Source: Cliona cf. orientalis (taxonomy: Eukaryota > Porifera > Demospongiae > Clionaida > Clionaidae). From it: 64,000 bases of DNA. The notes below the pieces were generated by a model. The model was not told the origin of the DNA. It ran no database searches and saw only the letters and a list, made by a program, of their open reading frames with translations. The stretch spans positions 4,960,001 through 5,024,000 of the forward strand of contig OZ005703.1 in the NCBI GenBank assembly GCA_963930775.1, given 5' to 3'. Numbering within the stretch: position 1 is the stretch's first letter; each line of letters opens with the position of its first letter. Of this stretch, positions 10,801 to 64,000 are shown piece by piece. Made by a program: the position numbers and the translations under genes.

Positions 10801-11284
10801 AGTTACGGTCGAGCACTCCTTTTGGAGATTCACTACTTTGTCCTGTGAAAGTCTTAGTCAAGTATATACATGCGTTTATGGCAGCGGGAGACCATTTATG
10901 GTGCACACAGGATGTCCGAGGGGTGGGGAGACCATTTTGTCCTGGGGACCACTTGTGTATGGGGACCAGTTAACTCGTCCCATACAATATGTAGCTAATG
11001 CATTACAAACATGCACCCAAATATCTCAAAATAGGTAACTTCGTGAAATTTTTAAGTATCTAGAAATACTGAAAATGGGAATATAGTGTACAGTGGCCGA
11101 GAAGGGTCATTTATTTTGATTTCCAGGTGCTAATAATTTTTTACAAAATTATTGTGAATAGCAAAAATGTCATTCATCTTACCCAATTCAGAATTAGCTA
11201 TAATAATAGTCTGAGTAGTGAACCTAAGAAATTAACACATGAAGAAAAAAGCAATTTTGTGAGAAGAGGTGAGAACTCAGCAGT

Positions 11285-32560: not shown

Positions 32561-32595
32561 TACGGTGGCCGAGAGAGACACACACGCACTATGAT

Positions 32596-32935
32596 TTGAC
32601 CTTAAGTGATTCGATCGTAATTCATACCACTGTAAGCGATTCAACCTTAAGCGATTCGTTGGTAAGCGATTCAACCTTAAGCGATTCGCTGGTAAGCGAT
32701 TCGTTGGTAAGCGATTCAACCTTAAGCGATTCGCTGGTAAGCGATTCAACCTTAAGCGATTCGTTGGTAAGCGATTCAACCTTAAGCGATTCGCTGGTAA
32801 GCGATTCAACCTTAAGCAATTCGATTTCTTCGTAAGCGATTCTTTGATTAGCTTTGCGACTGGTAAGCGATTTATTAACCGTATAGCGATTTTTTTTGGA
32901 AAGCAATTCCACCGCAGGCAATTTGATTGCAAGCT
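32596..32935 (+). repeat. AAGCGATTC word array, left arm
   Basis: About twenty degenerate copies of a 13-17 bp unit, alternating TAAGCGATTCAACCT and TAAGCGATTCGTTGG / GCTGG forms. It decays toward the interior. Confidence 0.9.
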
Positions 32936-32954
32936 ATAATATATTAAACGGCGG

Positions 32955-34050
32955 ATTCGTTTTGTTTTTTTTTGTTTTTTTTTGTCTATAATACTTCTTG
33001 CATAGCAAAGGATGCACAATAGCTGACACAAAAAATAGCTAATCGTGTGTACACCCCATAAATAAAATAACGATACAAAAGTTATAATTATAATAATATA
33101 AATAGGATACAGTATACACAAATGAAGAACGTACATGTATAAATAATGATAAAGTGAATAATAGTTAGTGCAGTAGCCCTTTAAAAGCCTGTAAGCTGCT
33201 CGCAGTAACTTGCTGCTCAGTGAGGTGGTTCCATGCAGTTGCACCACTCGGTACAAACGAATAAAAGAATGCATTTGTTCTCGCAAATGGCTGATGTAGC
33301 AGGTGTGATCTTGCACGCCTCTCACAATAACTTGTAGTCTCTTGAAAGATCGAGGGGAAATCACACAGACCATGAATAATACGAAACATGTGCTGTAATT
33401 TTAAATGCAATCGACGATGCTGTAAAGATGGTAAGTCGACCATTTGCATAAGCTGTGTATAGCCCTGGTCCCACTTGCGAGTAATAAGTTTCATGGCAAA
33501 CTTTTGTACCCCTTCCAATGCATCAACGTCTTTTTGGAGGTAAGGATCCCATAAAGGGGCTGCATACTCTAGATGCGGCCTAACGAGTGAGAGATACAGC
33601 TGCTTCATTGTGCTGGGTGTATATAGCATGATTATAAAAATTGTCGATACAGCAGACCAAGCAGTTTCCTAGCTTTTGAACAAACCATAGCTATATGGTC
33701 TGACCAGCTTAGGTTGCTCCTCAAGAGAACTCCAAGGTACTTAAAAATTTCAACTCTTTCCAATGGAACTCCATTCAAATAAAAGGTGAACGTATAGGAC
33801 ACACTGGGTTTCCTCGATATTATCATGTACTTGCACTTGGTGGCATTAAGTTTTAGATAATTGGAACTTGCCCACTGTTCTACTTCTTCTATGTCATGTT
33901 GGATGGCTCTAGCGTCCTGTGGACTAGCAATTAATCGATAAAGTAGGACATCATCTGCATAAAGAACACACTGAGAAAGTGGTGAAAGGGAGATGGTAGT
34001 AATATCATTTATATAGATCAAAAATAAAAGAGGGCCTAACACCGCCCAAA
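32955..34050 (-). mobile_element. 5'-truncated LINE inside the TIR element
   Basis: On the minus strand the RT reads from just before VLGPLLFLIYINDI through YADDVLLYR, then FKYLGVLLRSNLSWSDH, YLSLVRPHLEYAAPLWDPYL, LEGVQKFAMKL and the C-terminal PFARTNAFF ... AWNHL. There is one frame change near 33630. The 3' UTR (CTATTGTGCATCCTTTGC) and A-rich tail are at 32955-33020. It is the same family as 26217-30391. Confidence 0.88.
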
Positions 34051-34400
34051 TAACTAGAGCTCTGTTTACAGTGTACCCGCGTGCTGGTGGCTGCATCTAC
34101 ATGTAGCTGCAGATCGCCTGTTGACGATCTTTACCTACATATGCGAAATAGTTATGCGTACATGGCCTGATGTTGGGTATGGTTGATAGGCGTGGCCATA
34201 AAACGCAGTGTTTACGACGTTCGTGGGCTTCATTAAACGATTAGAGGCATAATGGAGCCAATTATTCGACGATTCCGACGGATTCCCTGTGCTTATGAGT
34301 CACTCACATGCCTAGATCATCAGATCTGGCGATTTTCGTGTTGACGACAGACAAACCCGATTGCTTCACACCTTGCTGCGTATGCGCGCGCGGGATAACT
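34050..34400 (-). repeat. Dispersed repeat family member (partial)
   Basis: It shares AACTAGAGCTCTGT at one side and TCTGGCGATTTTCGTG, then GCGCGCG.GG.ATAA, at the other with 57797-58195 in the same orientation. The middle is diverged. Confidence 0.6.
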
Positions 34401-34477
34401 AGCAAAGAAGAGGTGTGGCTGGTGTTTTAAGGCAATAATGAAGGTAGAAGCGGTAGGTAGCTTACCAAGGTATCGCT

Positions 34478-34750
34478 TACCGCTTAAGGTTGAATCGCTT
34501 ACTAACAAATCGATTAGGGTTGAATCGCTTACCAACGAATCGCTTAGGGTCGAATCGCTTACCAACGAATCGCTTAGGGTCGAATCGCGTACTTACCAAT
34601 GAATCGCTTAATCGCTTAGTGTCGAATCGTTTACCAACGAATCGCTTAAGGTTGAATCGCTACCAACGAATCGCTTAAGGTTGAATCGATTACCAGCGAA
34701 TCGCTTAAGGTTGAATCGCTTACCAACGAATCGCTTACCAGCGAATCGCT
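34478..34750 (-). repeat. AAGCGATTC word array, right arm
   Basis: The same words as 32596-32935 but in opposite orientation (AATCGCTTACCAACG, AATCGCTTAAGGTTG). This is the inner part of the right terminal inverted repeat, separated from the outer part (36613-36702) by a nested insertion. Confidence 0.9.
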
Positions 34751-34759
34751 TAAGGTACC

Positions 34760-36606
34760 ATTTAATTGCGTGGGCGTGAGCGTCAGGAATGGCTAATTCA
34801 ATTAGCGAATCGTGAAGGGGCGTGGCCGAAGAGGCCATACGAGTGCTTTTGGTCGAAGGTGGGCGTGTCCAGAATCGGCCAGGGATGATTATGCGCGTGT
34901 AATTAGCGACCGGAAGTGGCCCCTGAAGAAAAGGCCGGTAATTGCCCACATCAAGCAAGATCAAAGCATTCTTGCTTAACTATTAACCGCAACGACAAAT
35001 TAAACACTAAGTAGAAAAAAAAAAGCAAATTTAAATAATTAAATAAATAATCTAATTCATGGGGGGGTTGGGAGCACTTGGGGGGATAATTTTTACATGG
35101 GCACGCAGAATGGGTCGAAACTAGAGATTTGATCCTGGGGAATTTTGATTCACGCCTTAGAATTAAAGTTACAGCCCTTTGAAGTTACCCCATATGTTTG
35201 TATAGGAAGCCATGCATTTGCAATGTTTTCCGCCCACGCGCTACGTGAGGGGCGGGGCCACGCGCGCACATTAACGTGACGACCATTACCCACTTTGATC
35301 AAAATTGATGTATAGGCTGCCTGCTTGCATTGTATGGCTCTACTATGCATCCAGCTCAACTATGTGGCAGTTTTCGAACAATTTTTTTTTTCTGCTTAGT
35401 GTTCTGGTCGCCTTGAAAATTATACACTAAGTTATACACTAAGTAGAAAAAAAGAAAAGATTTAAATAATTAAATAATTAAATAATCTAATTCATGGGGA
35501 GTTTGGGAGTACTTGGGGAGATAATTTTTACATGGGCACGCAGAATGGGTCGAAACTAGAGATTTGACCGGACAGATTTTTGATTCACACCTTACAATTA
35601 AAGTTACGGCCCTTTGAAGTTTCCCCATATGTTTGTACAGGGAAGCCATGCGTTTGCAATGTTTCTGCCCACGCGCTACGTGAGGGGCGGGGCCACGCGC
35701 GCACATAAACGTGACGACCATTACCAACTTTTTGACAAAATTGAAATTTAGGCTGCCTGCTTGCATTGTATGGTTCCACTATGCACCCAGCTTGATTATA
35801 TGGTGGTTTTTGGACAATTTTTTTCTGCTTAGTGTTCAGGTCGCCTTGAAAAAAAAAAAAAAAAAAAAAGCTAATTAGGCCTAATTAAGCATGTGGGCGT
35901 GTTCCTGGCACTGTGTGGAGTGTGTGCGTGTGCGTTAATGTAGGTTTTATTGCTTCCGATTGGGCGTGGCTTCACGGGCCAGTGCTTGGACATCGGGGCC
36001 GGGGACTTGGCTGCGGCGATAGGTGGGCGTGTCCCGGATGCGGTGGTGACCTTTGACCCCGTCCAGGAGGCTTTGGGGGCGTGGCAGGAGGTCAAAGGTG
36101 AGGCCATGTCTGTTAATGAGGCACTGTACGGCGGTGCGATCGAGGGGCCTGTACGGCTGGACGGAAGCTGACGATGGTTTGAAGCGGATGTGGTTGCGAT
36201 GACGTGTTGTTACTCCGCCCACACAGGAAATGAGGTGAGCTCTTGTGTGGGCGGTGTGGCAGAACGGCCTCCAAGTGTTTGTGTGTGTTTTGGCCTTGAG
36301 GAAGCTGTGTGTTTTAATTGGGATTGATTGTGGGCTTCCGGTGGACATCCGGTGGTTAGTAGGCACTTGATTGAGAATGGTGGTCCTTGGGGAACAGGGT
36401 GGGGCTGTTTTGGGCGTGGCCTGGCCCCTCCCTTCCGGCTCGGCTTCCGGTCCATGGAGGATATTAAATGAACACTTCCGGCTCTAGCAGCCACACCCCT
36501 GAGACCTGTGCAATTAAAAGGGCGTGGTTACACAACATGCACCTCACTAATGACTTTGATGTGGTTTAGGTGTCATATCCCCCACCTCACGCCCACGCAA
36601 TTTAAT
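34760..36606. mobile_element. Nested 1.85-kb TIR element
   Basis: The ends are inverted repeats: ATTTAATTGCGTGGGCGTGA and, reverse-complemented from the right, ATTAAATTGCGTGGGCGTGA. Both sides are flanked by GGTACC. GGTACC is its own complement, so it may be a TSD or part of the terminus. The element interrupts the right word array of the 4.1-kb element. It contains an approximately 430-bp tandem duplication and GC-richer sequence with many GGGCGTG motifs. No coding region is recognised. Confidence 0.7.
35000..35860 (+). repeat. Tandem duplication of about 430 bp
   Basis: Two units, each starting at CACTAAGTAGAAAAAA. Both contain ACATGGGCACGCAGAATGGG, CACGCGCTACGTGAGGGGCG and TTTTTCTGCTTAGTGTTC. 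They are highly similar. Interleaved minus-strand ORFs are by-products. Confidence 0.85.
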
Positions 36607-36708
36607 GGTACCTTAAGGTTGAATCGCTTACAGTGGAATGAATTACGATCGAATCACTTAAGGTCGAATCATAGTGCGTGTGTGTCTCTCTCGGCCACCG
36701 TAACTAAG

Positions 36709-38404: not shown

Positions 38405-38557
38405 ATACCAAGGATCCACTGGCTTCGATATCTAACCTATAATAGCTATTATCGGCTTCCAGCCTCGTGTAGCTAGCTATTTGAGGCTCACCTGAATAAG
38501 CCCTTGCTGCTAGTGATCAATCATCACTGAGTTTGCCAGTGCTACACCCAAACTACG

Positions 38558-41170
38558 ATGGAGGGGCATTATATTGAAATGCCTGATCTTGCATCTTTTG
38601 TTGTACCCAATGTTCATCCCACAGGGCGAGAGCTTGGTAAGGGAGCTTATGGGAGTGTGGAGGAGGTGGAAATCCTGGGATCTGTGTGCGCAGCCAAAAA
38701 AATCCATGCTGAGTTTCTTAATATTGGTAGCCATGAAGATATCTCACATATGATCACTAAGTTCACAAGTGAGTGCAAGCTAATGAGCATGCTCTGTCAT
38801 CCTCACATTGTCCAGTTTCTTGGTATATGCCATCTTCCTGAGGCAAGGCTACCTTGCCTTGTGATGGAGCGTCTGGATACAAGCCTTCATGATCTATTGG
38901 AGACCAGCCCCAATCTGCCACTAGCTGTCAAAAAATCAGTTCTTCTTGATACCGCCCGGGGTCTCCTGTACCTTCACAACCACTCTCCACCAATTATTCA
39001 TCGAGATCTCACTGCAAGGAATGTGCTCCTCAATTCTGCCATGGTAGCCAAAATTGCCGACTTGGGTGTGGCTCGCATTGTGAACCTCCAACCAGACCAG
39101 CTAGCTACGATGACCCAAGGACCTGGAAATATCGTCTACATGCCCCCCGAGGCAATGGGCGAGCACACACAATACAATACCTCACTCGATATCTTCTCAT
39201 TTGGTAATATTTCTCTCTTTACCCTCACCCAGGAGTTTATTGGACCAAAGCTCAAGGCTGCTACGTACACTGATGGTACAGGAAAGATCAATGCACGCTC
39301 TGAAATTGAGCGACGTGAGTATGGCTTTTGTATCATTTATCGTGGTCTGGGAAAAGATAATGTACTTGCACAGCTAACACGAGACTGTCTTCAAAACCAC
39401 CCTGCTTACCGCCCTAACGCTGCTGATCTTGTTGAAAGGATCAAGAGAATATCATCAGATATGGTACTGCCAAGCAAACTTGACTTGATGAAGCAGCTAT
39501 CAAGTAAGGAGAAAGAAAATAAGGAGATGGCAGATGAAATCAAGCTGCTACAAGACATGATGTCATCTCAACAGCTAACATTGCAAACACAATCTTCAAT
39601 TCAACGGAAAGAGATAGAGACCAAGGACACACAATTGATAGAGCTTCAAAAGGTGATACATACCCAGGAAGAACAAATACAAGACATCCAAAAGAGGCTG
39701 GCAGACATGATGGCACAGGTAAACTCCTATAAAATTAATCACCGCAGATAGGTTAGGTATAGTTGCAGGCCAATGGTTGATTCCATTGCATAGCAGGGTA
39801 TCAGGTTGAACTGTACAAAGTAGGCTAGCATTGGCCATCATATATTTATTAAGTTGATTTGTGCTTTACATACTGAGTAATTTATCTTGAAGCTTCTTTA
39901 TTATAGGGAAGTGTATCCCGTGAGGAGGCAAGACAGTTTCAAGCACAGATAAACAAAATGAAAGTAAGTGCAGATATCATGCAGTACTTTGCATGCTCAG
40001 AAGGATGTTAAGATAAAACAGCCCAATCAAAAATTGTATTGAGCCTTTACACAGTCTGGGCAATTAAATATTTTTGTAGCTATAAGGCTATCATAATAAT
40101 TATATCATTGTTCATTGCAACTTTTCGTCCTTTTCATGCAATCATTATTGATGCTGCTTTCTCTCATGTGACAGCCTGCACATGACGAGGTGATATTTCC
40201 ATTGACATTTAAGTGGGAGAAACGAAATAATTTACCTCATTGTGTAAGCACCACAGATTCATGCATCATCAATGGCAAGATGTATATCAATATTGGTGGC
40301 AGTTTTCTTCTTGAGTATGCCTCTGAAACTGATACCTGGATAAATCTATTAGTACCTACTACACAGCATGGACTAGTTTCCCTCAATGGAAAGCTCACTC
40401 TTGTGGGAGGACTTATGAAAGAATCCACTGAGGTTCTGAACTATTCACGTTCAATTCGAGTTTGGGACAGTAATTCTAAGCAATGGATAGAGCCCTATCC
40501 ACCAATGCCAATGGGAAGATGCTACTCAGGCTGTTCCAGTTACAAACACTATTTAATTATTGCTGGCGGGGAGATAGAAGGGAAAGTTCAGACTACTTCA
40601 GTGGAAATCCTAGACACTAAAATTGGACAATGGTTCAAAGCTCCACCAATGATGTATAATGGAAAGAATATTCAATTGGTAACAATTGGACAAAGTTTAT
40701 ATGCTTATTTTACGTATCGGGGTGTGCTTACCGCTTCTAAATTCCTATTGAGGGTCTCCCTACCAACTCTCATCTCACACACTCTGCAAGGAGAGAATCG
40801 TGATACATCCATCTGGGAGAAGATACCAGACGTACCATTGTACTTGACAACACTTTTTTCGATCGGCAACATGCTACTGACAGCTGGAGGCAACCCTAGT
40901 GGGATGGTTGGTGCTGTACTATCAGCTCTGCATATCAAAAATAATTATTCAAGTGCAGATATCCACCTCTTCAACCCCCACACAAACCAATGGCTCAAGA
41001 TTGGGGAGTTGCCTGAATCGAGAATGCTTTGTGCCTGCTGTGTGTTACCATCAGGTAAGCTGCTAGTGGCTGGAGGAGAACATTTATCAACAATGAGTGG
41101 AAGTGGCACCCTATCCACAGTCTACACAGGAACAATTGCTGGATCATTTTTTGAACCACCACACTACTGA
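38558..41170 (+). CDS. Protein kinase / coiled-coil / Kelch-repeat protein, copy 1
   Basis: Three exons: 38558-39718, 39907-39963 and 40175-41170, with GT-AG phase-0 introns. Exon 1 encodes a tyrosine-kinase-like domain (residues about 20-300). It has a glycine loop GKGAYGSV, the lysine in CAAKKI, the catalytic loop HRDLTARN, and DLG in place of DFG. The activation segment ends MPPEA and the late Arg is in HPAYRPNAADL. A coiled coil (about 310-405) continues into exon 2. Exon 3 gives Kelch-type blades (NGKMYINIGG, LIIAGGEIEG ... VEILD, DIHLFNPHTNQWLKIGELP, LLVAGGEH). Likely an intracellular kinase using its Kelch propeller to bind partners. All exon joins keep the frame and the key residues are present, so it looks functional. 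A near-identical copy lies at 61518. Confidence 0.88.
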
Positions 41171-42716: not shown

Positions 42717-43620
42717 CTGCAGAGTACAAGCTTAGGCATATATAACATATCATCTACATGTACATAAGGGAGTCTAGAATCAATTAGCTTAGATGGACTT
42801 CGATCCCTCAGAGAGCCTATAAATAATACTAGTCTAGCTTCATCCCGCCTTGAGGAGGATTCGAGCTAGCATCGAATCGAAACGTCGACAAGATAAGTTT
42901 CTTGTGTTCCAGTTACTGTTATCTACATGAGACCTTCATTCACATTCCACATTAATTTTTCACTTTTGGGTTACACCACTTTAGTTCTGCATGAGCCCTT
43001 CATATTATTATCTACGGTGGCCGAGAAGGGCCATTCCAAACTCGAGAGTCGATCATTTCCAAAGTTGATATTTCCAAACTTGACATTTCTAATGTTGTCA
43101 TTTCCAAACTTGACATTTCTAATACTGTCATTTCCAAACTTGGCTTTTCTGAACTTGATCGTGGTACACGTATGCATGCGCGGCGGTACGCATGTCATGT
43201 GACTAACATAATGCACCCCGTGATCCACCGTTGGCTATTCATGATCAGAGGAGGTTGGACAAGGTCTCATACATGATTGAGGAATTTTTGGAATTGGGTA
43301 ATAAAACTTGGCCAGATAGTCTATGTTCAGAAGAGATATCTGTGCCCAACCTGTGCCCCGTGAGAAAATCAACCACGGGATACCTTTGAGCTCCTTTACG
43401 TACATGGAATGCGATGGAATATATTGTAAATATGCACCCCATCATATAAGTAACACTATTAAAAATTCTTGATGATCACAATAGGCCAGGATGCGATGTT
43501 TCATCATTATGGAGTCACTGATAAAGTATTATCCCACAATTCAAAGATTTTTGTCTTTATGTATTGCACTATGCATGTCCGACCTCCTCTGATTCATGAT
43601 GAACGCGATGGAGCATTTGC

Positions 43621-45797
43621 TTTTTACAGCCGTACGTGCTTCTTATTTTGCTAAGCAGTTGCGCTCAAGCCTCGAGGGATTCCCTTATCCAAGATTACTT
43701 TCGTCAAGGATACCCGTACAAACTCATTTTGTGTTTTCTGTATTTCGTTCATGGGATATCGTTGTCACTGAGACAATTAAAGCGGATTTTAAGGAGACTA
43801 GGGCTAAGAAGACAACCCCCGGCCATGAATCGGCGAAGAGAGAGACAACTAGAAGCAGCCATAAGGGTATGAATCAATGAACTTAGGAGATATTTTACTA
43901 TCATACTGCAGGGGGGGGGGGCAAAATTGCTTTGTCAGCTACTATATATGATAAGACTGACGAGGTTAAAATTATTCCAGCGTGTGTGTATTGGGGTGAG
44001 GATTACTAGTGTAAAATATGTGGCATGCATCAGACTTTGTCATAAGGCCATGACTTGTATTCCTGTCGGGCAGGTGGATATTTTTTATTCATGGTATTAT
44101 TCTGCTGGCATACAGTTCAGTATGCATGCAAAAATCTGACCACACCCCCAAACCAGCCTCGAATTAAGGGGTGAGGCCAATGAAACTGCCAATAATAAGT
44201 GAGGATGCTGGTGCCAAAATAGCATGCAGGTGGGGGACGGGAAACAATGTTATTATTATTATTATATTATTATAATTATATAGGCAGAGTTACAAGGTTC
44301 AAGTAGTGTTCTTGGTTATCGTTTCCTTTGGAAGAGAATATGCCAATCAACTAATACTCCTTACACAAGGTAGCTGCTATTAATTTGGTTACCTTAAATG
44401 TTATGACTAATAATTTTATATGCAGGGATTCCGTGATGCGTGCACTAGCACGGATCGATCCCTGTGGAAGTAGAGAGCGGAGGAGGAATAAGCTTACACG
44501 CAGACAATACACAAGCAAGGTCTGACTATGACCAACCTTCTAATCAACACTGATAAAATTAACGTTTATGATAGTACAGGGTCCTAATTATGTTTGGCAC
44601 TGTGACGGTATGGACAAACTCAAAAGATTTGGGATAGCAGTACATGGATGTATTGATGGGTAAGGGTTGATTTAATAGTATATTATGCTATAATTATTGG
44701 TATAAATAGCTATTCTAGAAAGGTGTTATGGCTAAAGGCTGGTACAACAAACAATAATCCACGGGTTATTGCATACTACTTCATGGAGTATATAACAAAG
44801 TTTGGTGGTAAGCGAATCTATCCAGGAGATGTATTGTATAAATTTAATTTTGTATGCTTGCAAGACTTAGTAGTGCTACATCATGTACTAGGTGTGCCCA
44901 GAATTTTACGAACAGATTGTGGAACTGAAAATACAAATTTGGCTTTCATTCAACCTTATCTAAGGCGATCACATGGTGATTGTTTTTCTGGAACAGAAAG
45001 TTTCCGATATGGACGTTCAGTATCCAATCAAGTACGTCACAATAGGATCTTAAAAAATGATATATTTATTATAATACTGTACTTGGCATAATGACCATGA
45101 AAACAGAGAATAGAGGCTTGGTGGTCCCAACTAAAACGACTATGCACATTGTGGTGGCATCAACTATTTATGGTATGAACTTAATAACCAATATCACAAT
45201 AATATTGCTGTTATAATAGTTATGAATTTATATAAGGCAATGCAAGAAGGCGGACTTTATGATGAAACCAATTTTGTTCATGTGTAAGTGAAGTGGCAGA
45301 TATTATTGTGTTTGCATGTATAGTTATAATTGTGTCAATCTTTTGTAGAGACTGCTTTGCACTATGCTTTATGAATTTGGTTCAAAAAGATTTGGATAGG
45401 ATCAAAGCTGAATGGAATTGCCATAGAATCCGTGAAAGCCGACAGAGTTGCTGTCCATCAGGTCATCCAAACGAGCTTTATCAATTACCTCAGCTACTAG
45501 GTACATAATATTATTATAGTATTGATTGGTCACCTTTACCCTCATGCAAGTATATATATTCTTTACCTTCCTTCTATAGGTACCAAGGATTATTCACATC
45601 CTGTTGATCCAAGGGATATGGGTGTTGCAAAAGAATACACAGAGGAGCCAGATCCACCTGGTAGTCTGGAGTTCTTGGAATTAGCATTGGAAATCATGAC
45701 CCAACACCATCTATTCATGCCAAATACAGTCCAAGAAGCATTGGAGCTATATGTAAGCCTCACAACGATTATACAAAGTGAGATAAGTGATCATTGA
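43621..45797 (+). CDS. DDE integrase-type transposase (rve-like), intron-rich
   Basis: About ten exons with GT-AG introns of 50-420 bp: about 43621-43866, 44284-44369, 44426-44519, 44580-44659, 44710-44807, 44894-45031, 45107-45172, 45237-45282, 45349-45500 and 45580-45797 (the last may end at 45752). Exon 1 gives a helix-turn-helix (IQDYFRQGYPYKLILCF ... SLRQLKRILRRLGL). The catalytic core follows: first Asp in WHCDGMDKL, second Asp in LRTDCGTEN, Glu in SNQRIEAWW, 40 residues after the second Asp. Further conserved text: SFRYGRS, HRIRESRQSCCPSG. All joins keep one frame and the triad is complete, so it could be active. The start codon is unresolved; no ATG precedes the HTH in the same frame after the TGA at 43600. 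Confidence 0.82.
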
Positions 45798-45909
45798 ATA
45801 TTGTTTCAAAATGAAATTACATTGTGACTGATGAATGTCAGAGATTGATATTGTTATACTTTTTCAGTACACTGTTAGTTCAAGCCAACTTGCATGTTCA
45901 CAGAAATAG

Positions 45910-48900
45910 CTAGGACTTAATGCTCAGTAACTTCAACAGGACTTCAGCACTGGTAGCCCTATGGCTCTTGTCATAAAAGCAAGATTCACATAGTAGACGC
46001 ATATCCTCATCAAGGCCCACAGTGCTGGGAGTTTCGTTGTTAACGGACACCTTGTACATAATTTGATACGGGCTGAGTCCTTCCCAGACAGGACGCTCCG
46101 TAAAAACCACCAGCAATACTGCTCCAAAGGCATAGACATCGCTCTCTATACCAACTGATTCAGCCCGGAGTTGTTCTGGGGGTTGGAACCCAGGACTGCC
46201 TGCCAGCATTGTTTTTGTCCCTACTTGTGCAGTCATTGTCATGACTTTTGCCAACCCAAAATCAGTCAGTGTGGCGTGGACAGCAAGGGTATCAACCTAA
46301 AGTGTATACAGACACAATTTCTATAAATTTGGCACACAATCATTTGCACTATATAGCCTTGCCCTGTTTTCTATCCCATGGCAATCGCATGTGCATTGAT
46401 ACCCACTCACAATATAGTAATACAGATGACAACTTTTGCCTACATAATATTATAGGTATCCTTCTGTTAAGGGTACTAATTGAATAATAGTTTAAGGTGC
46501 CAAATTTAGAGAAGATAATGATAACTGACCATGATATTCGCTGGCTTGATGTCCAAGTGTGCCATAACTGGTGAATGGGTATGTAAAAACAAAACTGCTT
46601 GACACACTTGAATGCAGAAAAGCCATTTCTCCTTGCTTGTGAGCTAAAATAGAATAAATATCTACACTGTTATAATGCACAAGCTAAAATAAATCTGTAT
46701 ACCTTTCTGCGACCATCACCAAAGATAAGATCATGTAGATTTGCTCCCCTGACCAAAGGAGTGACTATAGCAATTTTCCCTTCATCAATGGGCACAACAC
46801 CAAGCAGTGAGCTCAAATGTGGGTGCTGTATCAGCCTATATACAAATACAAATCCATCATTGTAACTATAGCAAGCAAAAGTATAGAGATACTTACTTCA
46901 GCAACTCCACCTCCTTTGATGTAACTTGACACTGCAGGGGTATGACTTTGGCTGCCACAATTGTCCCACGCCAACAAGCTCTATGAACTGTTCCAAATGT
47001 TCCACTACCAATAACATTCAGTAGTGTCAACTTCTTAGGATCTGTTGTATATACGTACATGCATGCAAGTCCACGTATCGAGATAATACATAGCATATAT
47101 TGCACCACACATACCATCAAAAGTGATTAGTGGAAGCTCGTCTATTGCTCGCCAAAGGAGACCGGAGTTCATAGCTATAAAATTACTACAAAATAATATT
47201 TATCCATATGTACAGCTCTGTATATGTATACCTGATCCAGTGCATGATTCATCTTGTTCCTTATTAAGCTTGTCACACCAGAGCATTGGCTCACCAACAC
47301 ATGGGGGTACTTCAACCTTCCACTCATGATCAGATCCTATTATAGATTGTGTATACATGTGTAGTATGAGACCCAAGAAATATATATTCATCCATATTGT
47401 ATACATTATACCTGATACAGAAAAAGTGAGGTTGGTCTTTCTCTCTTCTTCATTTAGTTTTGTGACAATATGGCAGGTAAAGTCCCCCCTGCTCTCACTG
47501 TACATGATTGGGTCACAAGCTGACATGGTTACTCCGTTATAGCTCCAAGAGTATGTGCTATGTGTATGGTAACCTCCCGTCACCACTGCTGCCAAAAGAG
47601 CTACTGGACACCCTGGGTAGGCTAATCCTCCAGTCCAAACACCAAACTCAGATCCTAAAAAACATAGTTGTAATTATAAAATCAGCTACATGATATATCC
47701 ACATAATATACCTTCTTCTGGTTTTCTATATAGAACCTGACCAGTATCCCTACAACACCTATCCACAAGTGTCAACTTGCTGGCCACGGCATCACCACTA
47801 TCTTGAAGTTCATAAAGCAACAAAAAATGTCAAAAACCTATACTATATATAGCCGGCTTAAAACTTACCCCAAATTTCTATTCCACTAAACATAATCCCT
47901 TCAAAGTCACAAGGGTTATATGGATGCAAAGGCACGGACTTCTCCCTCTCTGTAAACCAGTGCTCCAACTCTATATTTCCACATCTCATTAGGGCTTGCT
48001 CTTGGTGCATGTCCGTGAAAAAGCTACATTCTTTTCTGTAGTGGCTTTTCACGATCTTTGTGAATAATGGTTCAAAATGATCATCTGTATTGAAATAGAG
48101 TACTAAATAAAAATTTGTATTTGATCTATAGCCATATAATATATAGCTTACCACGATATTTAAAAGAAGCACAAGGAGCAACAGCTATATCGTCTATACA
48201 GGGAAGATTATGTTAAATTATGATGCTCATAGTGATAATTTTCTTAGACACACCAAACTATAGTAACTGACCTGAAAGATTTCCCTTACTTCCAACAGCA
48301 CTAGCTTGTGTAGCCTCTTGATGTCCTGCTGTATCATCACAGCCTATACATATAACGTTACTGTGTATGTGAAGAATTTCACCAAACCCAGAAAATATGT
48401 GCACAAAAAGTTTTTGCCAGTGCGGTAAAGGTCACAATATCCTCTATGTGATCTTTAATACAGGACAGAAAGTTTTCACCAATGAGACTAGGTGGAGAAA
48501 TTGGTGAAAATTTTCTTCTGGCAAAAATATCTCCATACACATGCATGGTATAAATATTACATTCATTATCATATTTGACCGTCCACATTGCATTGGATAT
48601 CGATCTGAGATACAGGCCTATAAGGTGATATTTATCATTTTTCACTTTTTGGCAGAGGAATCATTCCTCGACACAAAAATGTATATGGTCACATATTTTA
48701 TATACATGTAGTACCATCAATATGTCTGTCACTAGCTGTGGTATCTCCTTTCCCAATAGAATCATGTGGCTCTTTTTCATCGTCAGTATCCATCTCTGCA
48801 TAGTATTATGTATATGCATACCACAAACTGGATTATTACACTACTATAGGAATATATGTGCACTATAGATGGCTGCATTAGTTTTCAGTGAAGTGTTTCA

Positions 48901-50784
48901 AGAGAAACCCAGACGATGAAGACCTAACCTTACAATTTCCAAACTTATCATTTCCAAAGTTGTTATTTCTAAACTTAAAATTCCAAACTTATCATTTCCA
49001 AAGTTGTTATTTCTAAACTTGAAATTCTAAACTTATCGTTTCCAAACTTATCATTTCCAAACTTACCATTTCCAATCTTGCTATCTCCAAGCATGCTCTT
49101 TTGTAGGATTAATATTATTATTAAATACTGTGATGGTCATGGTACATACCAAAATACTTGAGTGTCTAAATAAGTACCCAGGTTTATTTCTAACATGCAT
49201 ACAATTTTGCTCATATCTATATATACACAGGGTACAGGATCTATGGGGTTACATACAACGGTACTAGGTTTTGTCATGTACAACAATACAACCAACCTTT
49301 GCGGACACAGTAGTATCGCACTTTTGAAGGATACTTGGCATTAGATAAATGGATGTAACGGTTGAGAGTCCACTCTAGCTCCTCTGTTCCATTGTCAACA
49401 TCAATCTTGATGGTATCTGAGCTCCATATTGGTATCCCGCGACTGTCAGCAATGTAGAACTCCGCATTCTCCTGTTCCTCTTCAGTATAAATCTCTGCAA
49501 TACATTTCTCTAACATCCTTTGATAGCTACAATCTTTCCGGAAGAACATGTTCCTTGCATCCCCTTTCACAAGCACTCCTCGGGAACGGCGAGGACAGTG
49601 GTACATCTTGCCAATTCCCAACTGTACAAGAATGCAAAACGCATAATACTGTTGGCAATACTGCATCCTATCCAATATAATATAGGGGTCATGACCTTGA
49701 TCTCCACCAATAGTACTTTGTCCTATACACAACATAGCATTAGTTGCTCTATTATGGTATTGTATACTGTACTTACACCAATAGGTATATATATATTATG
49801 TCAAAGATAGGCCTTGAAGATACAGAGCAATACAATATCACACGGTAAGTAGCCCCCTACCCATTAGCTATAAGTTACAGGTGGTGATATTTCACAACAG
49901 TATACTATTTACTGTAAGCTGATCATCTAGGTCAGTCCCTGTTTTCTGTTTCTTCTTCTTAGTCATCTGACGCGTGACAATTGATCTCTTCTTTTTGGCA
50001 CTCTCTATGTATTGATTGATCGCTGCAAATATTAAAGATAAAAATAACAGCTAACTACTACAAGAGTAACTAGCTGGCTATTAGTATTGTTTATCACCAT
50101 GTCCAGAATCTTTCACTACTTCCAAGTCAGCTAGCTAGCTACCAAAGTTCAACCGTTACTCGTTTGGTGTGCATTATTCAAAATACATATAACTGTAGCT
50201 ACAAATTTCATAAATTATAGCTCGTTTAAAAAATAGATATATTGGCATGGGTGACCTAGTCATAATGCTTATTTCTGGACGATAACTCAGCAGTAGTACT
50301 TCATTGTATAAAACAGTTCAGTACTCAAGTATACATGCATATGCAGTAGTCAACTTGATCAGCTAGCTACTCATACATAGCTAGTACTCTCATTTCTTGA
50401 AACTTCACCTGTTGAGCTTTCAGAATTCCGAGTTAATAATATTTTGGCACTAACACGTGGAAGTTCTTAATAAAGCACACCATAATCTATTCAATGCCAC
50501 ATGCATGCTATGCGGCTATGTATGCCTGGATGATAATCTGTACATACACGAAAGAGGTGGCAAAATACGTTTATAATTATAAACACCGTCACATAATACA
50601 GCAATCTTAACCACATCGCCATGATCTAGATGGCCGACCATGACCGTAACTGAGCGCAAACTACTAGCTACTGAGCTAGTAGACTGAGCTACTTACTCTG
50701 ATTTCGAGAATGTTCCACTCCAGAGCCACCAGACATAGCTGACGCCCCTGCCTCATCCCCGGTGGATTCAGCTTCGGAATCCAT
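45910..50784 (-). CDS. Transposon-borne protein kinase with novel N-terminal and Ig-like domains
   Basis: About fifteen exons on the minus strand: 50697-50784, 49913-50022, 49297-49722, 48715-48795, 48272-48343, 48152-48193, 47869-48084, 47712-47801, 47412-47654, 47232-47336, 47115-47174, 46897-47041, 46703-46835, 46530-46643 and 45910-46296, about 770 residues. One exon-2/3 junction is off by one base and unresolved. The product begins with acidic and basic stretches (KKKRS, KKKKQK, possible NLS) and no signal peptide. A compact domain in exon 3 (IADSRGIPIW ... YIHLSNAKYPSKVRYYC) is unknown to me. An Ig-like exon follows (YSWSYNGV ... RGDFTC). The kinase domain has GSGTFGTV, VAAKV, HLDIKPANIM, DFGLAK and PPEQ, with all catalytic residues. 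It lies wholly between the transposon ends. Confidence 0.8.
48930..49095. repeat. Internal TTTCCAAACTT word array
   Basis: About ten tandem degenerate units (AACTTATCATTTCC, AAAGTTGTTATTTC) lie in the kinase's third intron. The words match those of the element's terminal repeats, but the array is 2.1-5.9 kb away from either end. Confidence 0.85.
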
Positions 50785-51059
50785 CACGCAACCAGACTAT
50801 TTTCCACAGTACGATGAAAAATAAATGACGAATCCCGGCAAGATGATCCTGAGCTGCTTGTCGCAAACACGTGGTGGAACACCGGTTCTCGTTCCAGTTC
50901 CCGGAATCTCAATCCCTATCCCAAGATTAGTAGTGCGCGCCTACTGGGGGAGAAAGACCGGCGGCGTACGTCTAAATTAATTTCTAATAGCAAGTCCATC
51001 ATTATACCGCTCTTATAGAAGGGCGGGGTCAGCATACTCTCACGCGCACGCTATATAGT

Positions 51060-51092
51060 TCAGTCAGCCCCTCCTACATAGGAGGGGCTGGC
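51060..51092. other. Strong hairpin near the right end of the transposon
   Basis: AGCCCCTCCTA and TAGGAGGGGCT pair perfectly around a 2-base loop (about 51066-51089). It is upstream of the kinase start and just inside the right TIR, in locally GC-rich sequence; possibly part of the kinase promoter or a subterminal element. Confidence 0.5.
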
Positions 51093-51276
51093 TAGGATCA
51101 GCGTAAGTCAAGTCTCGCGCGCCAGCTCAGCTCGCCCCCTCCTACGTAGATAGGATCAGTTTGGAAAAGTCAAGTTTGGAAATGACAACATTAGAAATGT
51201 CAAGTTTGGAAATATCAACTTTGGAAATGATCGACTCTCGAGTTTGGAATGGCCCTTCTCGGCCACCGTAATTATC

Positions 51277-53740: not shown

Positions 53741-54363
53741 GATTCACTGCCACGAGATCAATTCTCATTAGATCAACTCCCACAAGATCAATTCTCGTAC
53801 GATCAATTCTTGCCAAATCAACTTGTCACGAGATCAATTCCCATATGATCAACTCAATTTGTGAATGGGACATTCTCAATCTGCCCATCAATTTTCTATC
53901 AGGTCCAAATTTAACCAATGATCTATGCCTCAATTGCTTCCTAACAAACAACGGAACTCATACAACCATACATACACGCTCCTGAAAAGATGCTACCTTA
54001 CACCTTGGACTAACTCTCTCTTCATACTTGTGCAATTTTGAATTGGAAATCATTCAAGCATCGTTTCCAGTGCACACGCACACGCAAACAACTATGGCAT
54101 TCATAGCTAACAATGAAGATGAAGATGCAGGTGTGTGAGTTAGGAGCTACACGGCCTCCATGAAGACTAAGGGTCAGAGAAAGAGAGAATTCAGACGTTT
54201 GTGGAACAATTAGTATGTATCAAGAATCAACAATATTAGCATATATATGAGTTGATTAAACTGGAATTGATCTCGTGACAAGTTGATTAGGCGAGAATTG
54301 ATTACATGAGAATTGACCTCGTGGGAGTTGATCTAATGAAAATTGATCTCATGGGAGCACCCC
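53741..54363. mobile_element. MITE with GATCAATTCTC word-repeat TIRs
   Basis: Left arm about 53745-53855 and right arm about 54245-54358 are inverted repeats of about 110 bp. Both are composed of GATCAATTCTC / GATCAACTCCCAC words (left GAGATCAATTCTCATTAG, right as complement GAGATCAATTTTCATTAG). TTTTCG lies on both flanks and may be a 6-bp TSD. The interior has no gene. Confidence 0.75.
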
Positions 54364-54470
54364 TATTTTTCGCACCTGTTTAATGTGACTGCATTACTAA
54401 GAACAACTGTCTGTTGATAATATTTGCCTGACATGCTCTCACTATCTTTATCATCATGTCACTTGGTATA

Positions 54471-54556
54471 TATGTGTTCATTTGGCAACACATCTTCCCT
54501 CTTCCTCTTATTATACCACCTCTGCATGGCAATAAGCATAAAGCCAACCAGCACAG
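54471..54556 (-). pseudogene. Duplicated 3' end of the second POT transporter
   Basis: Nearly identical to 51572-51657 (GTGTTCATTTGGCAACACAT, CCTCTGCATGGCAATAAGCA), encoding only the last helix boundary and start of the tail. It is isolated between two TIR elements. Confidence 0.85.
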
Positions 54557-54570
54557 ATCACAGTGGCCCA

Positions 54571-55830
54571 GAAGTGCACTCCTTTTGGCCTTCAACTCAA
54601 TCCTGATTCTGATTCTCCGACTTGAGTTTGATTTTGATTCTGATTCTCTGACTTGATTCTGATTCTCCAATTTGATTTTGATTTAATTCTGATTCTCCGA
54701 CTTGATTTTGATTCTGATTCTCTGACTTGCAATTGATTCTGATTCTCTAACTTGATTTTGATTTTTATTTCTCTGATTCAATTCTTATTTAGATTCTTAC
54801 TTCGATTTTGTAAGTGGATTCTGATTCTCTAACGTGATTCTCATTGGGCTTTCCATTAATAATAATTAAAGGACCTGTAGCTATAGGAAACATTTTAATG
54901 CCCCCAAGATTAATTAAAATTGCCATAGAATCAATTAATTATTGCCAACCCCCTCTGGATGTAATTGTCAATTGGGAATCCTCAATGGGGGGTGTATGCC
55001 TATTAAATGGAAAAACCCATTACTGGTTTTTAGCAAAGCAAGCCATCTAATGTTTTTTCAATGACATACATGCAATTAAGATGTTAACCCACTCACGGTA
55101 CATAATCCTTTTTCCGTAAGATTTTACTCCACTGCCATAGACAGTAACAAGACTGTCTACATGGAATACCTATCTCTTACGCTATTACTGCAGTAGGAAA
55201 TGTTATGCTGTTGTAAATATCTGTTATCCTTGTGCGTTCACTTTCTTTGTTTACTTGCACCCAGGCAGAAACTACCTAGAGACGCCACTGCACCAGCCCT
55301 GTGCCGCCGATGGCATGCATGTGATCATGATGGTAGTCTATACCATGAGCATGATGAATCCTCAAATGAATCTTTTGACTTACATGAAGGCTCGCCCCAC
55401 ACAGATGATTTTCATCACCACTAGCTAGTAACCCAAAATTGGCTACTGACTGAAGAAGAGGGCTGAGGAGGGGGGGGGGGGAGTTTTGGGGGAGATGCAC
55501 CCTTACGCTGCTTGTGGCCCTAATCTAGCTGCCATTCTGAAAGGACAGATAGCTATTATTTTGAGTCATCACTAGCTTGTAGAATAAGAATCAAGTCAGA
55601 GAATCAGAATCCACTTACAAGTCAGAGAATCAGAATCCACTTACAAGTCAGAGAATCAGAATCAAAATCAAAAATCAGAATCAAATTGGAGAATCAGAAT
55701 CCACTTACAAAGGATCTATTAAAACAAGAGTCAAGTCAGAGAATCAGAATCAAAATTAAAAATCAAAATCAAGTTGGAGAATCAGAATCAGGATTGAATT
55801 GAGGACCGAAACGAGCACTTCCACACCAGC
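54571..55830. mobile_element. TIR element with GATTCTGATTCTC word arrays
   Basis: Left AAGTGCACTCC...CTCAATCCTGATTCTGATTC and right, complemented, AAGTGCTCG...TTCAATCCTGATTCTGATTC are inverted repeats. They run into arrays of GATTCTGATTCTC / ACTTGATTTTGATT words (54595-54840 and 55585-55800). The 1.26-kb body has no recognisable gene. No clear TSD was found. Confidence 0.75.
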
Positions 55831-61175: not shown

Positions 61176-61517
61176 ATGGCATTTGGTAAGTTACATCGGA
61201 ACTGAATTCCAGCGAGCTCTCGGTGTTACTAAGCATCCGGTGCATGAGGTTTAATTTAAACCTAACAACAGTTGCTAGCTATCTACACCACAGCCAATAA
61301 AACAATCAATCTATGATATTTTAATAGAATACCTTCAGACGTCATAAATCTCTCGGGCTTCACCCTCAATACTGAAGATCCTTTGGCTTCGACGTTTAAT
61401 CTATACAGTAACTGCGGCTATTAATATCTGCTTCCAGCCTCATCACCTGGATAAGCTATTGCTGCTGGTGATTCATCATCCTGTTACTGAGTTTGCCAGT
61501 GCCACATCCAAACTACG

Positions 61518-64000
61518 ATGGAGGGGCATCAAATCGAAATCTCTGATCTTGCATCTTACATTGTATCCAACGTTCATCCCACAGGGCGAGAGCTTGGTAA
61601 GGGAGCTTATGGGAGTGTGGAGGAGGTGGAAATCCCAGGATCTGTGTGCGCAGCCAAAAAAATCCATACTGAGTTTCTTAATATTGGTAGCCATGAAGAT
61701 ATCTCACATATGATCACTAAGTTCACAAGTGAGTGCAAGCTAATGAGCATGCTCCGTCATCCTCACATTGTCCAATTTCTTGGTATATGCTATCTTCCTG
61801 GGGCAAGGCTACCTTCCCTTGTGATGGAGCGTCTGGATACAAGCCTTCATGATCTATTGGAGACCAGCCCCAATCTGCCACTAGCTGTCAAAAAATCAGT
61901 TCTTCTTGATACTGCTCGAGGTCTCCTGTACCTTCACAATCACTCTCCACCAATTATTCATCGAGATCTCACTGCAAGGAATGTGCTCCTCAATTCCGCC
62001 ATGGTAGCCAAAATTGCCGACTTGGGCGTGGCTCGTATTGTGAACCTCCAACCAGACCAGCTAGCTACAATGACCCGAGGACCTGGAAATATCGTCTACA
62101 TGCCCCCCGAGGCAATGGGGGAGCACACACAATATAATACCTCACTCGATATCTTCTCATTTGGTAATATTTCTCTCTTTACCCTCACCCAGGAGTTTAT
62201 TGGACCAAAGCTCAAGGCTGCTACTTACACTGATAATGCAGGAAAGATCAATGCACGCTCTGAAATTGAGCGACGCGAGTATGGCTTTTGTATCATTTAT
62301 TGTGGTCTGGGAAAAGATAATGTACTTGCACAGCTAACACGAGACTGTCTTCAAAACCACCCCGCTTACCGCCCTAACGCTGCTGATCTTGTTGAAAGGA
62401 TCAAGAGAATATCATCAGATATGGTACTGCCAAGCAAACTTGACTTGATGAAGCAGCTGTCAAGTAAGGAGAAGGAAAACAAGGAGATGGCAGATCAAAT
62501 CAAGCTGCTACAAGACATGATGTCGTCTCAACAGCTAACGTTGCAAACACAATCTTCAATTCAACAGAAAGAGATAGAGACCAAGGACACACAATTGACA
62601 GAGCTTCAAACGGTGATACATACCCAGGAAGAACAGATACAAGGCATCCAAAAGAGGCTGGCAGACATGCTGGCACAGGTAAACTCCTATAATATTAATT
62701 AATTCCATTGCATGGTCGAGTATCAGGTTGAACTGTACCAAGTAGGCCATATAGGCATTGACCATATATTAAGGGTTGATATGTGCTTTGCATACTGAGT
62801 AATTTAAGCTTTTTAATTATAGGGAAGTGTATCCAATGAGGAGGCAAGACAACTTCAAGCAGAGATAAACAAAATGAAAGTAAGTGCAGATATCATGCAG
62901 TACTTTTTGCATGCTCAGAAGGATATTAAGATAAAACAGCACAATCAATATAATATTGTATTGAGCCTATACACAGTCTGGGCAATTAAATTTTTTAGGC
63001 TATCATATTATTGCAACTTTTTTCGTCCTTTTTATGCAATCATTATTGATGCTGCTTTCTCTCACGTGCACATGCAGCCTGCACATGATGAGGTGATATT
63101 TCCATTGACATTTAAGTGGGAGAAACGAAACAATTTACCTCATTGTGTAAGCACCACAGATTCATGCATCATCAATGGCAAGATGTATATCAATATTGGT
63201 GGCAGTTTTCTTCTTGAATATGCCTCTGAAACTGATACCTGGGCAAATCTATTAGTACCTACTACACAGCATGGACTAGTTTCCCTCAATGGAAAGCTCA
63301 CTCTTGTGGGAGGACTTATGAAAGAATCCACTGAGGTTCTGAACTATTCACGTTCAATTCAAGTATGGGACAGTAATTCTAAGCAATGGACAGAGCCCTA
63401 TCCACCAATGCCAATGGGAAGATGCTACTCAGGCTGTTCCAGTTACAAACACTATTTAATTGTTGCTGGTGGGGAGATAGAAGGACAAGTTCAGACTACT
63501 TCAGTGGAAATTCTAGACACTAAAATTCAACAATGGTTCAAAGCTCCACCAATGATGTATAATGGAAAGAATATTCAATTGGTAACAATTGGAAAATGTT
63601 TATATGCTTATTTTACGTATCGGGGTATGCTTACTGCTTCTAAATTCCTATTGAGGGTCTCCCTACCAACCCTCATCTCACACACTCTGCAAGGAAAGAA
63701 TCATGATACATCCATCTGGGAGAAGATACCAGACGTACCATTGTACTTGACAACACTATTTTCGATCGGCAATATGCTACTGACAGCTGGAGGAAACCCC
63801 AGTGGGATGGTTGGTGCTGTACTATCTGCTCTGCATATCAAAAACAATTACTCAAGTGCAGACATCCACCTCTTCAATCCCCACACAAACCAATGGCTCA
63901 AGATTGGGAAGTTGCCTGAATCGAGAATGCTTTGTGCCTGCTGTGTATTACCGTCAGGTAAGCTGCTAGTGGCTGGAGGAGAACATTTATCAACAATGAG
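61518..64000 (+). CDS. Protein kinase / coiled-coil / Kelch-repeat protein, copy 2 (cut by window end)
   Basis: Exons 61518-62678, 62823-62879 and 63078 to beyond 64000, with splice sites at the same positions as the copy at 38558 and identical exon 1 and 2 lengths. The kinase domain keeps GKGAYGSV, CAAKKI, HRDLTARN and the same DLG variant. Differences from copy 1 are scattered substitutions (for example LRHPHIVQF for LCHPHIVQF). The Kelch part is open to the last base shown. The two copies are so alike, including in introns, that the duplication or a gene-conversion event must be recent. The third-exon acceptor differs slightly (CACATGCAG for ATGTGACAG). Confidence 0.87.

Follow-up and report, generated by a model that had tools for sequence, protein, structure and literature searches.

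An IS3EU-type DNA transposon from a sponge that encloses a canonical protein-kinase gene opposite its transposase

Does a cut-and-paste transposon in the genome of the sponge Cliona cf. orientalis carry a protein kinase as a gene of its own, or does the kinase merely ride along? We addressed this question at a single locus within a 64,000-nucleotide stretch of DNA, which we call the window. The initial annotation had described perfect inverted termini of about 102 bp flanked by a duplicated hexamer, ATTATC, and these boundaries held exactly. The element occupies positions 43013-51270 (8.3 kb); its left terminal inverted repeat (TIR), which begins TACGGTGGCCGAGAAGGGCC (43013-43114, + strand), is identical over 102 bp to the right TIR (51169-51270, - strand), and ATTATC lies directly outside both as a target-site duplication (TSD; 43007-43012 and 51271-51276). 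A longer alignment of the termini gave 98% complementarity across 110 nt, and the TIRs end in TACGG..CCGTA. The element reads as one mobile unit with both genes inside, and its perfect TIRs suggest recent mobility. No empty-site copy of its flanks was found within the 64-kb window.

The inner part of each TIR is made up of 15-bp iterons with the consensus CATTTCCAAACTTGA, the left set running inwards from 43054. Similar 15-bp iterons form an internal block at 48935-49079, in intron 3 of the kinase gene and in the left-TIR orientation (+). No TACGGTGG terminus was found at this block, which may be an old end, an expanded array or a set of regulatory binding sites. Iterons with a 15-bp period but unlike one another in sequence were also seen at 43054-43158, 32632-32822, 34481-34756 and 53755-53852, within or close to the termini of stretches that resemble elements, and the 15/30-bp spacing common to these sets may mirror the way in which the transposases bind.

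A DDE transposase had been proposed inside the element, and one is indeed encoded there. We modelled it on the + strand as 11 exons between 43659 and 45909 (43659-43866, 44290-44369, 44426-44519, 44580-44659, 44710-44807, 44892-45031, 45107-45172, 45237-45283, 45349-45500, 45580-45752 and, tentatively, 45868-45909), joined by 10 GT-AG introns into a stop-free partial protein of 392 residues. The start exon is missing from the model, since the ten top-scoring candidates disagree and none is compelling; the exon models of both genes are predictions from the sequence. The putative catalytic Asp/Asp/Glu residues fall at 136/195/236 of the partial protein, with 58 and 40 residues between them. PF24764 (‘rva_4, integrase core domain’) was matched above its Pfam cut-off at E 2e-36, while rve (PF00665, E 9e-7) fell under its cut-off and the NCBIfam models for IS481 (1e-7) and IS3 (5.8e-7) fell far under theirs. 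By sequence, the transposase had no relative among solved structures: the four matches at E up to 1 were all ETS-domain proteins, at E of at least 0.65. One HHCC pattern, tried ahead of residue 136 of the partial protein (the start exon lying outside it), had no match.

These features allowed us to ask to which superfamily the element belongs. According to the available portions of two reports, IS3EU/GingerRoot elements have TA..TA termini, usually a 6-bp TSD and an integrase-like DDE transposase with no HHCC motif (PMC10045372), and TET+ IS3EU families of rust fungi have termini of the form TAYGG..CCRTA and TIRs longer than 30 bp (PMC12730594). The kinase element ends in TACGG..CCGTA, is flanked by the 6-bp TSD ATTATC, encodes an integrase-like DDE transposase related to IS3 and IS481 (PF24764 and, more weakly, PF00665, IS481 and IS3) and, by the one pattern used on the partial protein, has no HHCC motif upstream. 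Judged by these features, its assignment to IS3EU is well supported. IS481EU, for which the same account gives TSDs of about 4, 15 or 25 bp (PMC10045372), was ruled out by the 6-bp TSD, and a Ginger1-type element by the lack of an HHCC match in the partial transposase.

Both ends of a second element, at 32561-36702, carry the terminal 14 bp (TACGGTGGCCGAGA) of the kinase element. This second element has 91-bp TIRs of 98% identity, its own 6-bp TSD (ACTAAG) and a CpG o/e of 1.02, and together the two elements show that TACGGTGGCCGAGA-type ends yield 6-bp duplications at different hexamers in the window. Neither the kinase nor the transposase was found in the second element by tblastn at E up to 10. 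However, beyond the first 14 bp its TIR is unlike that of the kinase element, and because of this difference it is no test of kinase carriage in the first family. By eye, it contains reverse-transcriptase-like ORFs, and an internal inverted iteron block lies at 34460-34756. No second copy of the transposase or the kinase is present in the 64-kb window.

Several further repeats were seen in the window. Beside a degenerate inverted pair of about 70% identity (54571-54845 and 55583-55821) lies a fragment of 35 aa (54441-54545) from another copy of the PTR transporter, and a TIR-like CACAGTGGCC stands nearby at 54559. Sites of the form TAC(G/A)GTGGCC..GAAGG occur at 1492 and 11089, inside a dispersed repeat of 81% identity (1287-1696 and 10887-11273). 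By resemblance, the window appears to encode kinases, kelch proteins, an ANF-type receptor and a PTR-type transporter, a gene content that looks sponge-like; a tRNA scan found none.

The kinase gene runs on the - strand from 50784 down to 45910. In our model, and in agreement with the roughly 15 exons first proposed, it has exactly 15 exons joined by 14 GT-AG introns and encodes 736 aa from ATG to stop with no internal stop. Donor sites are weak at intron 3 (GTTGGT) and intron 4 (GTACTA), and 9 of the 14 introns measure 57-78 bp. The chance of 736 codons staying open at this base composition is 8e-21, a crude figure because the exons were picked for being open. Exons 1-3 (49297-50784) provide the start, a basic NLS-like stretch recognized by eye (KKKRSIVTRQMTKKKKQK) and then an exon of 108 residues. 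This last exon matched no Pfam family above cut-off, and its structure model (mean pLDDT 44.6) was too poor for a fold search; the regions upstream of the catalytic domain gave two weak Pfam hits, both under cut-off. An Ig-like domain considered in one exon was dropped, as the model of that exon (mean pLDDT 48.0) was likewise too poor and no Pfam match was found at E up to 10.

Canonical protein kinases (ePKs) share a G-loop, a VAIK lysine, a catalytic loop with Asp and Asn, and DFG and APE motifs. The predicted kinase domain, residues 484-728, matches Pfam Pkinase at E 1.6e-34 and contains this set: the G-loop at 489, AAK at 507-509, HLDIKPANIM at 599, DFG at 620 and PPE at 647. The main catalytic motifs are therefore present, with HLD in place of HRD and PPE in place of APE. 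By its Lys, the loop HLDIKPANIM appears Ser/Thr-like, and it is non-RD. Among the best 60 of 1964 sequence matches to solved structures, plant CTR1 came first (7.3e-29), followed by receptor-like kinases, TAK1, MLK and IRAK4, and because of these matches we read the kinase, a canonical ePK, as TKL-like. The alpha-kinase family was absent from the three Pfam families listed for the protein at E up to 0.1. We ruled out an origin from the neighbouring kinase-kelch genes, to which identity is only about 25% over 203 aligned positions. A stretch of kinase plus kelch sequence is itself directly duplicated (38488-41097 and 61443-64000, 91.7% identity), the second copy running off the window.

The convergent orientation of the two genes was likewise as annotated. 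The transposase (+) and the kinase (-) each start near their own TIR and run toward one another until their modelled stops abut (TAG at 45907-45909, CTA at 45910-45912). If the tentative last transposase exon is left out, read-through from 45752 stops at 45795-45797, 112 bp from the kinase stop, and the coding gap, counted from 45752, is at most about 157 bp. The kinase ATG is 384 bp from the right TIR, and the two genes fill the element. Around the convergent stops, a scan of the + strand at 45701-46150 and of the - strand at 45601-45912 detected neither AATAAA nor ATTAAA.

Both ends of the element are CpG-rich and are candidate promoters: the left end, ahead of the modelled transposase exons (43013-43658), has a CpG o/e of 0.81, and the right end, ahead of the kinase (50785-51270), one of 1.03. 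Over the transposase span the ratio is 0.47, and the kinase gene, divided into four parts, has values of 0.24-0.58, including 0.28 and 0.35 over the span of exons 4-15; host genes taken for comparison gave 0.33 (kelch-kinase) and 0.25 (PTR transporter). From this pattern we infer two terminal promoters above CpG-depleted gene bodies. Against such a reading, high CpG also occurs outside the element, both in the second element and in the 55 1-kb bins outside 43-51 kb, where the median is 0.42 and the maximum 1.40; as these bins reach 1.40, a high CpG o/e is not special to the element.

Relatives were also sought in sequence collections. For the transposase, one stretch in viral contigs and 20 in bacterial and archaeal genome contigs fit the search pattern, and for the N-terminal kinase exon, five stretches in viral contigs; none of them was confirmed. 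The transposase protein had no relative among plasmids and phages, the transposase half of the element had no match in phages at the DNA level, and a 23-mer of the TIR was absent from bacterial and archaeal genome contigs. In viral contigs, a TIR 17-mer occurred at 4 loci and a catalytic-motif pattern at 21; since tblastn of the transposase and the kinase on these 25 loci gave no match at E up to 1, we regard them as chance hits. A further motif pattern had 0 matches. PF24764 was found in 0/4 viral records with the TIR 17-mer, which carries little weight as it was found in 0/14 control genomes as well. Comparison of the full-length kinase covered solved structures, Pfam, the window and the 25 viral loci only. 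Because the collections consist of prokaryotes, plasmids and viruses, these null results tell us little about animals.

How, then, did the kinase come to lie between these ends? The initial annotation offered a mobile passenger or a regulatory partner, which is the right pair of options. In fungal TET+ IS3EU families, an alpha-kinase gene lies opposite in orientation to the transposase, according to the portion of Kojima 2025 available (PMC12730594). As fungal elements of this superfamily carry an unrelated type of kinase in the same opposed layout, the kinase here may serve the transposon and not merely ride along. We think that the locus is probably an IS3EU transposon in which a canonical, TKL-like kinase of the Ser/Thr type is an integral second gene, one that would act in the nucleus on the element's behalf. 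That the kinase is integral seems likely from the anatomy of this one copy and from the fungal precedent: a single perfect TIR pair with a 6-bp TSD encloses both open genes, and the abutting stops, the filling of the element by the two genes and the CpG-rich ends, if these are terminal promoters, would fit a two-gene unit. Its nuclear action is a proposal drawn from the NLS-like basic stretch.

Some observations pull the other way. With one copy known, capture in a single copy could have occurred; the host-gene-like CpG o/e over kinase exons 4-15 also suits a captured host gene; and the second TACGGTGGCCGAGA element lacks both kinase and transposase, though its TIR differs after 14 bp. One alternative is transduplication, in which one copy or a small sub-family would have taken up an intron-bearing host TKL-like kinase as a neutral passenger that plays no part in transposition. 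Retention of introns in the kinase (judged on that gene's own intron lengths only) and its host-like CpG depletion agree with this, and kinase genes do duplicate here, as the twofold kinase-kelch pair attests. Yet the kinase is open across all 15 exons; its start lies next to the TIR in CpG-rich sequence, and its end abuts the transposase in the models. The source is not next door, as the remaining kinases in the window share only about 25% identity with it, and an opposed kinase recurs in fungal IS3EU (PMC12730594). We regard transduplication as unlikely.

A transposase-only element could also have come first, with the kinase gene or an iteron-bearing second copy entering later, in which case these ends would never have mobilized the kinase. 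The additional TIR-type iterons of intron 3, in left-TIR orientation, could be the remnant of a second end, but no TACGGTGG terminus was found at the block, and kinase exons flank it on both sides and are spliced in frame in the model; such nesting is improbable. Non-RD catalytic loops are of the type found in plant innate-immune receptor kinases, and IRAK4 and plant receptor kinases are among the best 60 of 1964 structure matches. The kinase might serve the host, for example in immunity, with the transposon ends a mere vehicle. These matches are unspecific, however, with CTR1 ahead of many TKL and receptor-like kinases, and the perfect TIRs suggest recent mobility; domesticated cargo seems very improbable.

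If the kinase is instead an integral gene, the element might work as follows. The transposase would bind the 15-bp TIR iterons, excise the element and, by making cuts staggered by 6 bp, insert it elsewhere. The kinase, entering the nucleus through its basic stretch, would phosphorylate the transposase or else host proteins involved in silencing, repair or the cell cycle, and this phosphorylation could raise or time transposition. It would in this way serve the element, a case that Kojima makes for the TET/JBP genes carried by fungal transposons in the text available (PMC12730594).

A kinase that proved to be a conserved second gene would give a eukaryotic cut-and-paste element its own signalling enzyme. 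More tentatively, kinase carriage in IS3EU may be recurrent, an alpha-kinase in fungi and an ePK here having been recruited independently into the opposed layout, because phosphorylating the transposase or the guards of the host would be one means by which these elements control their movement. If so, two kinase classes in one superfamily would mark phosphorylation as a step at which transposition is controlled. Kinase expansions in certain genomes could then consist in part of transposon genes and not of host signalling genes. Alpha-kinases are termed highly expanded in rusts in the accessible part of one report (PMC4469406), an expansion that a mobile gene could explain; the family is also an entry in a domain table of wheat rusts (PMC5295586, in part), from which we draw no inference. 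By speculation, kinases of the host's relatives could likewise be transposon genes.

The initial annotation had presented kinase carriage as rare and distinctive. Kinase carriage as such has a precedent in fungi (PMC12730594). No report of an ePK in an animal IS3EU element is among the literature matches listed (a Repbase entry may exist), and "transposon-encoded kinase" had no literature match as a phrase. IS3EU/GingerRoot elements in general share the termini, TSD and HHCC-less DDE transposase seen here, and a word search of the available text gave no kinase match (PMC10045372). Styx of Zymoseptoria (7927 bp) likewise combines an IS3EU-related transposase with further genes, but these are three, with putative GATA or CCHC DNA-binding motifs or a DUF, and no kinase in the portion available (PMC10853768). 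KolobokP is, like our element, an animal DNA transposon with a second enzyme gene beside its transposase; from the available text, it belongs to another superfamily, and its additional gene encodes a homing endonuclease of the His-Me finger type (PMC9587614). As far as the available part of PMC12730594 describes them, the kinase-bearing fungal IS3EU families match the element in their 6-bp TSD, TIRs longer than 30 bp, TAYGG..CCRTA termini and a kinase opposed to the transposase. They differ in that their kinase is an atypical alpha-kinase, whereas ours is a canonical ePK; in the TET/JBP gene that they have between kinase and transposase, for which the at most about 157 bp separating the two coding regions here leaves no space; and in their host, fungi in their case and an animal in ours.
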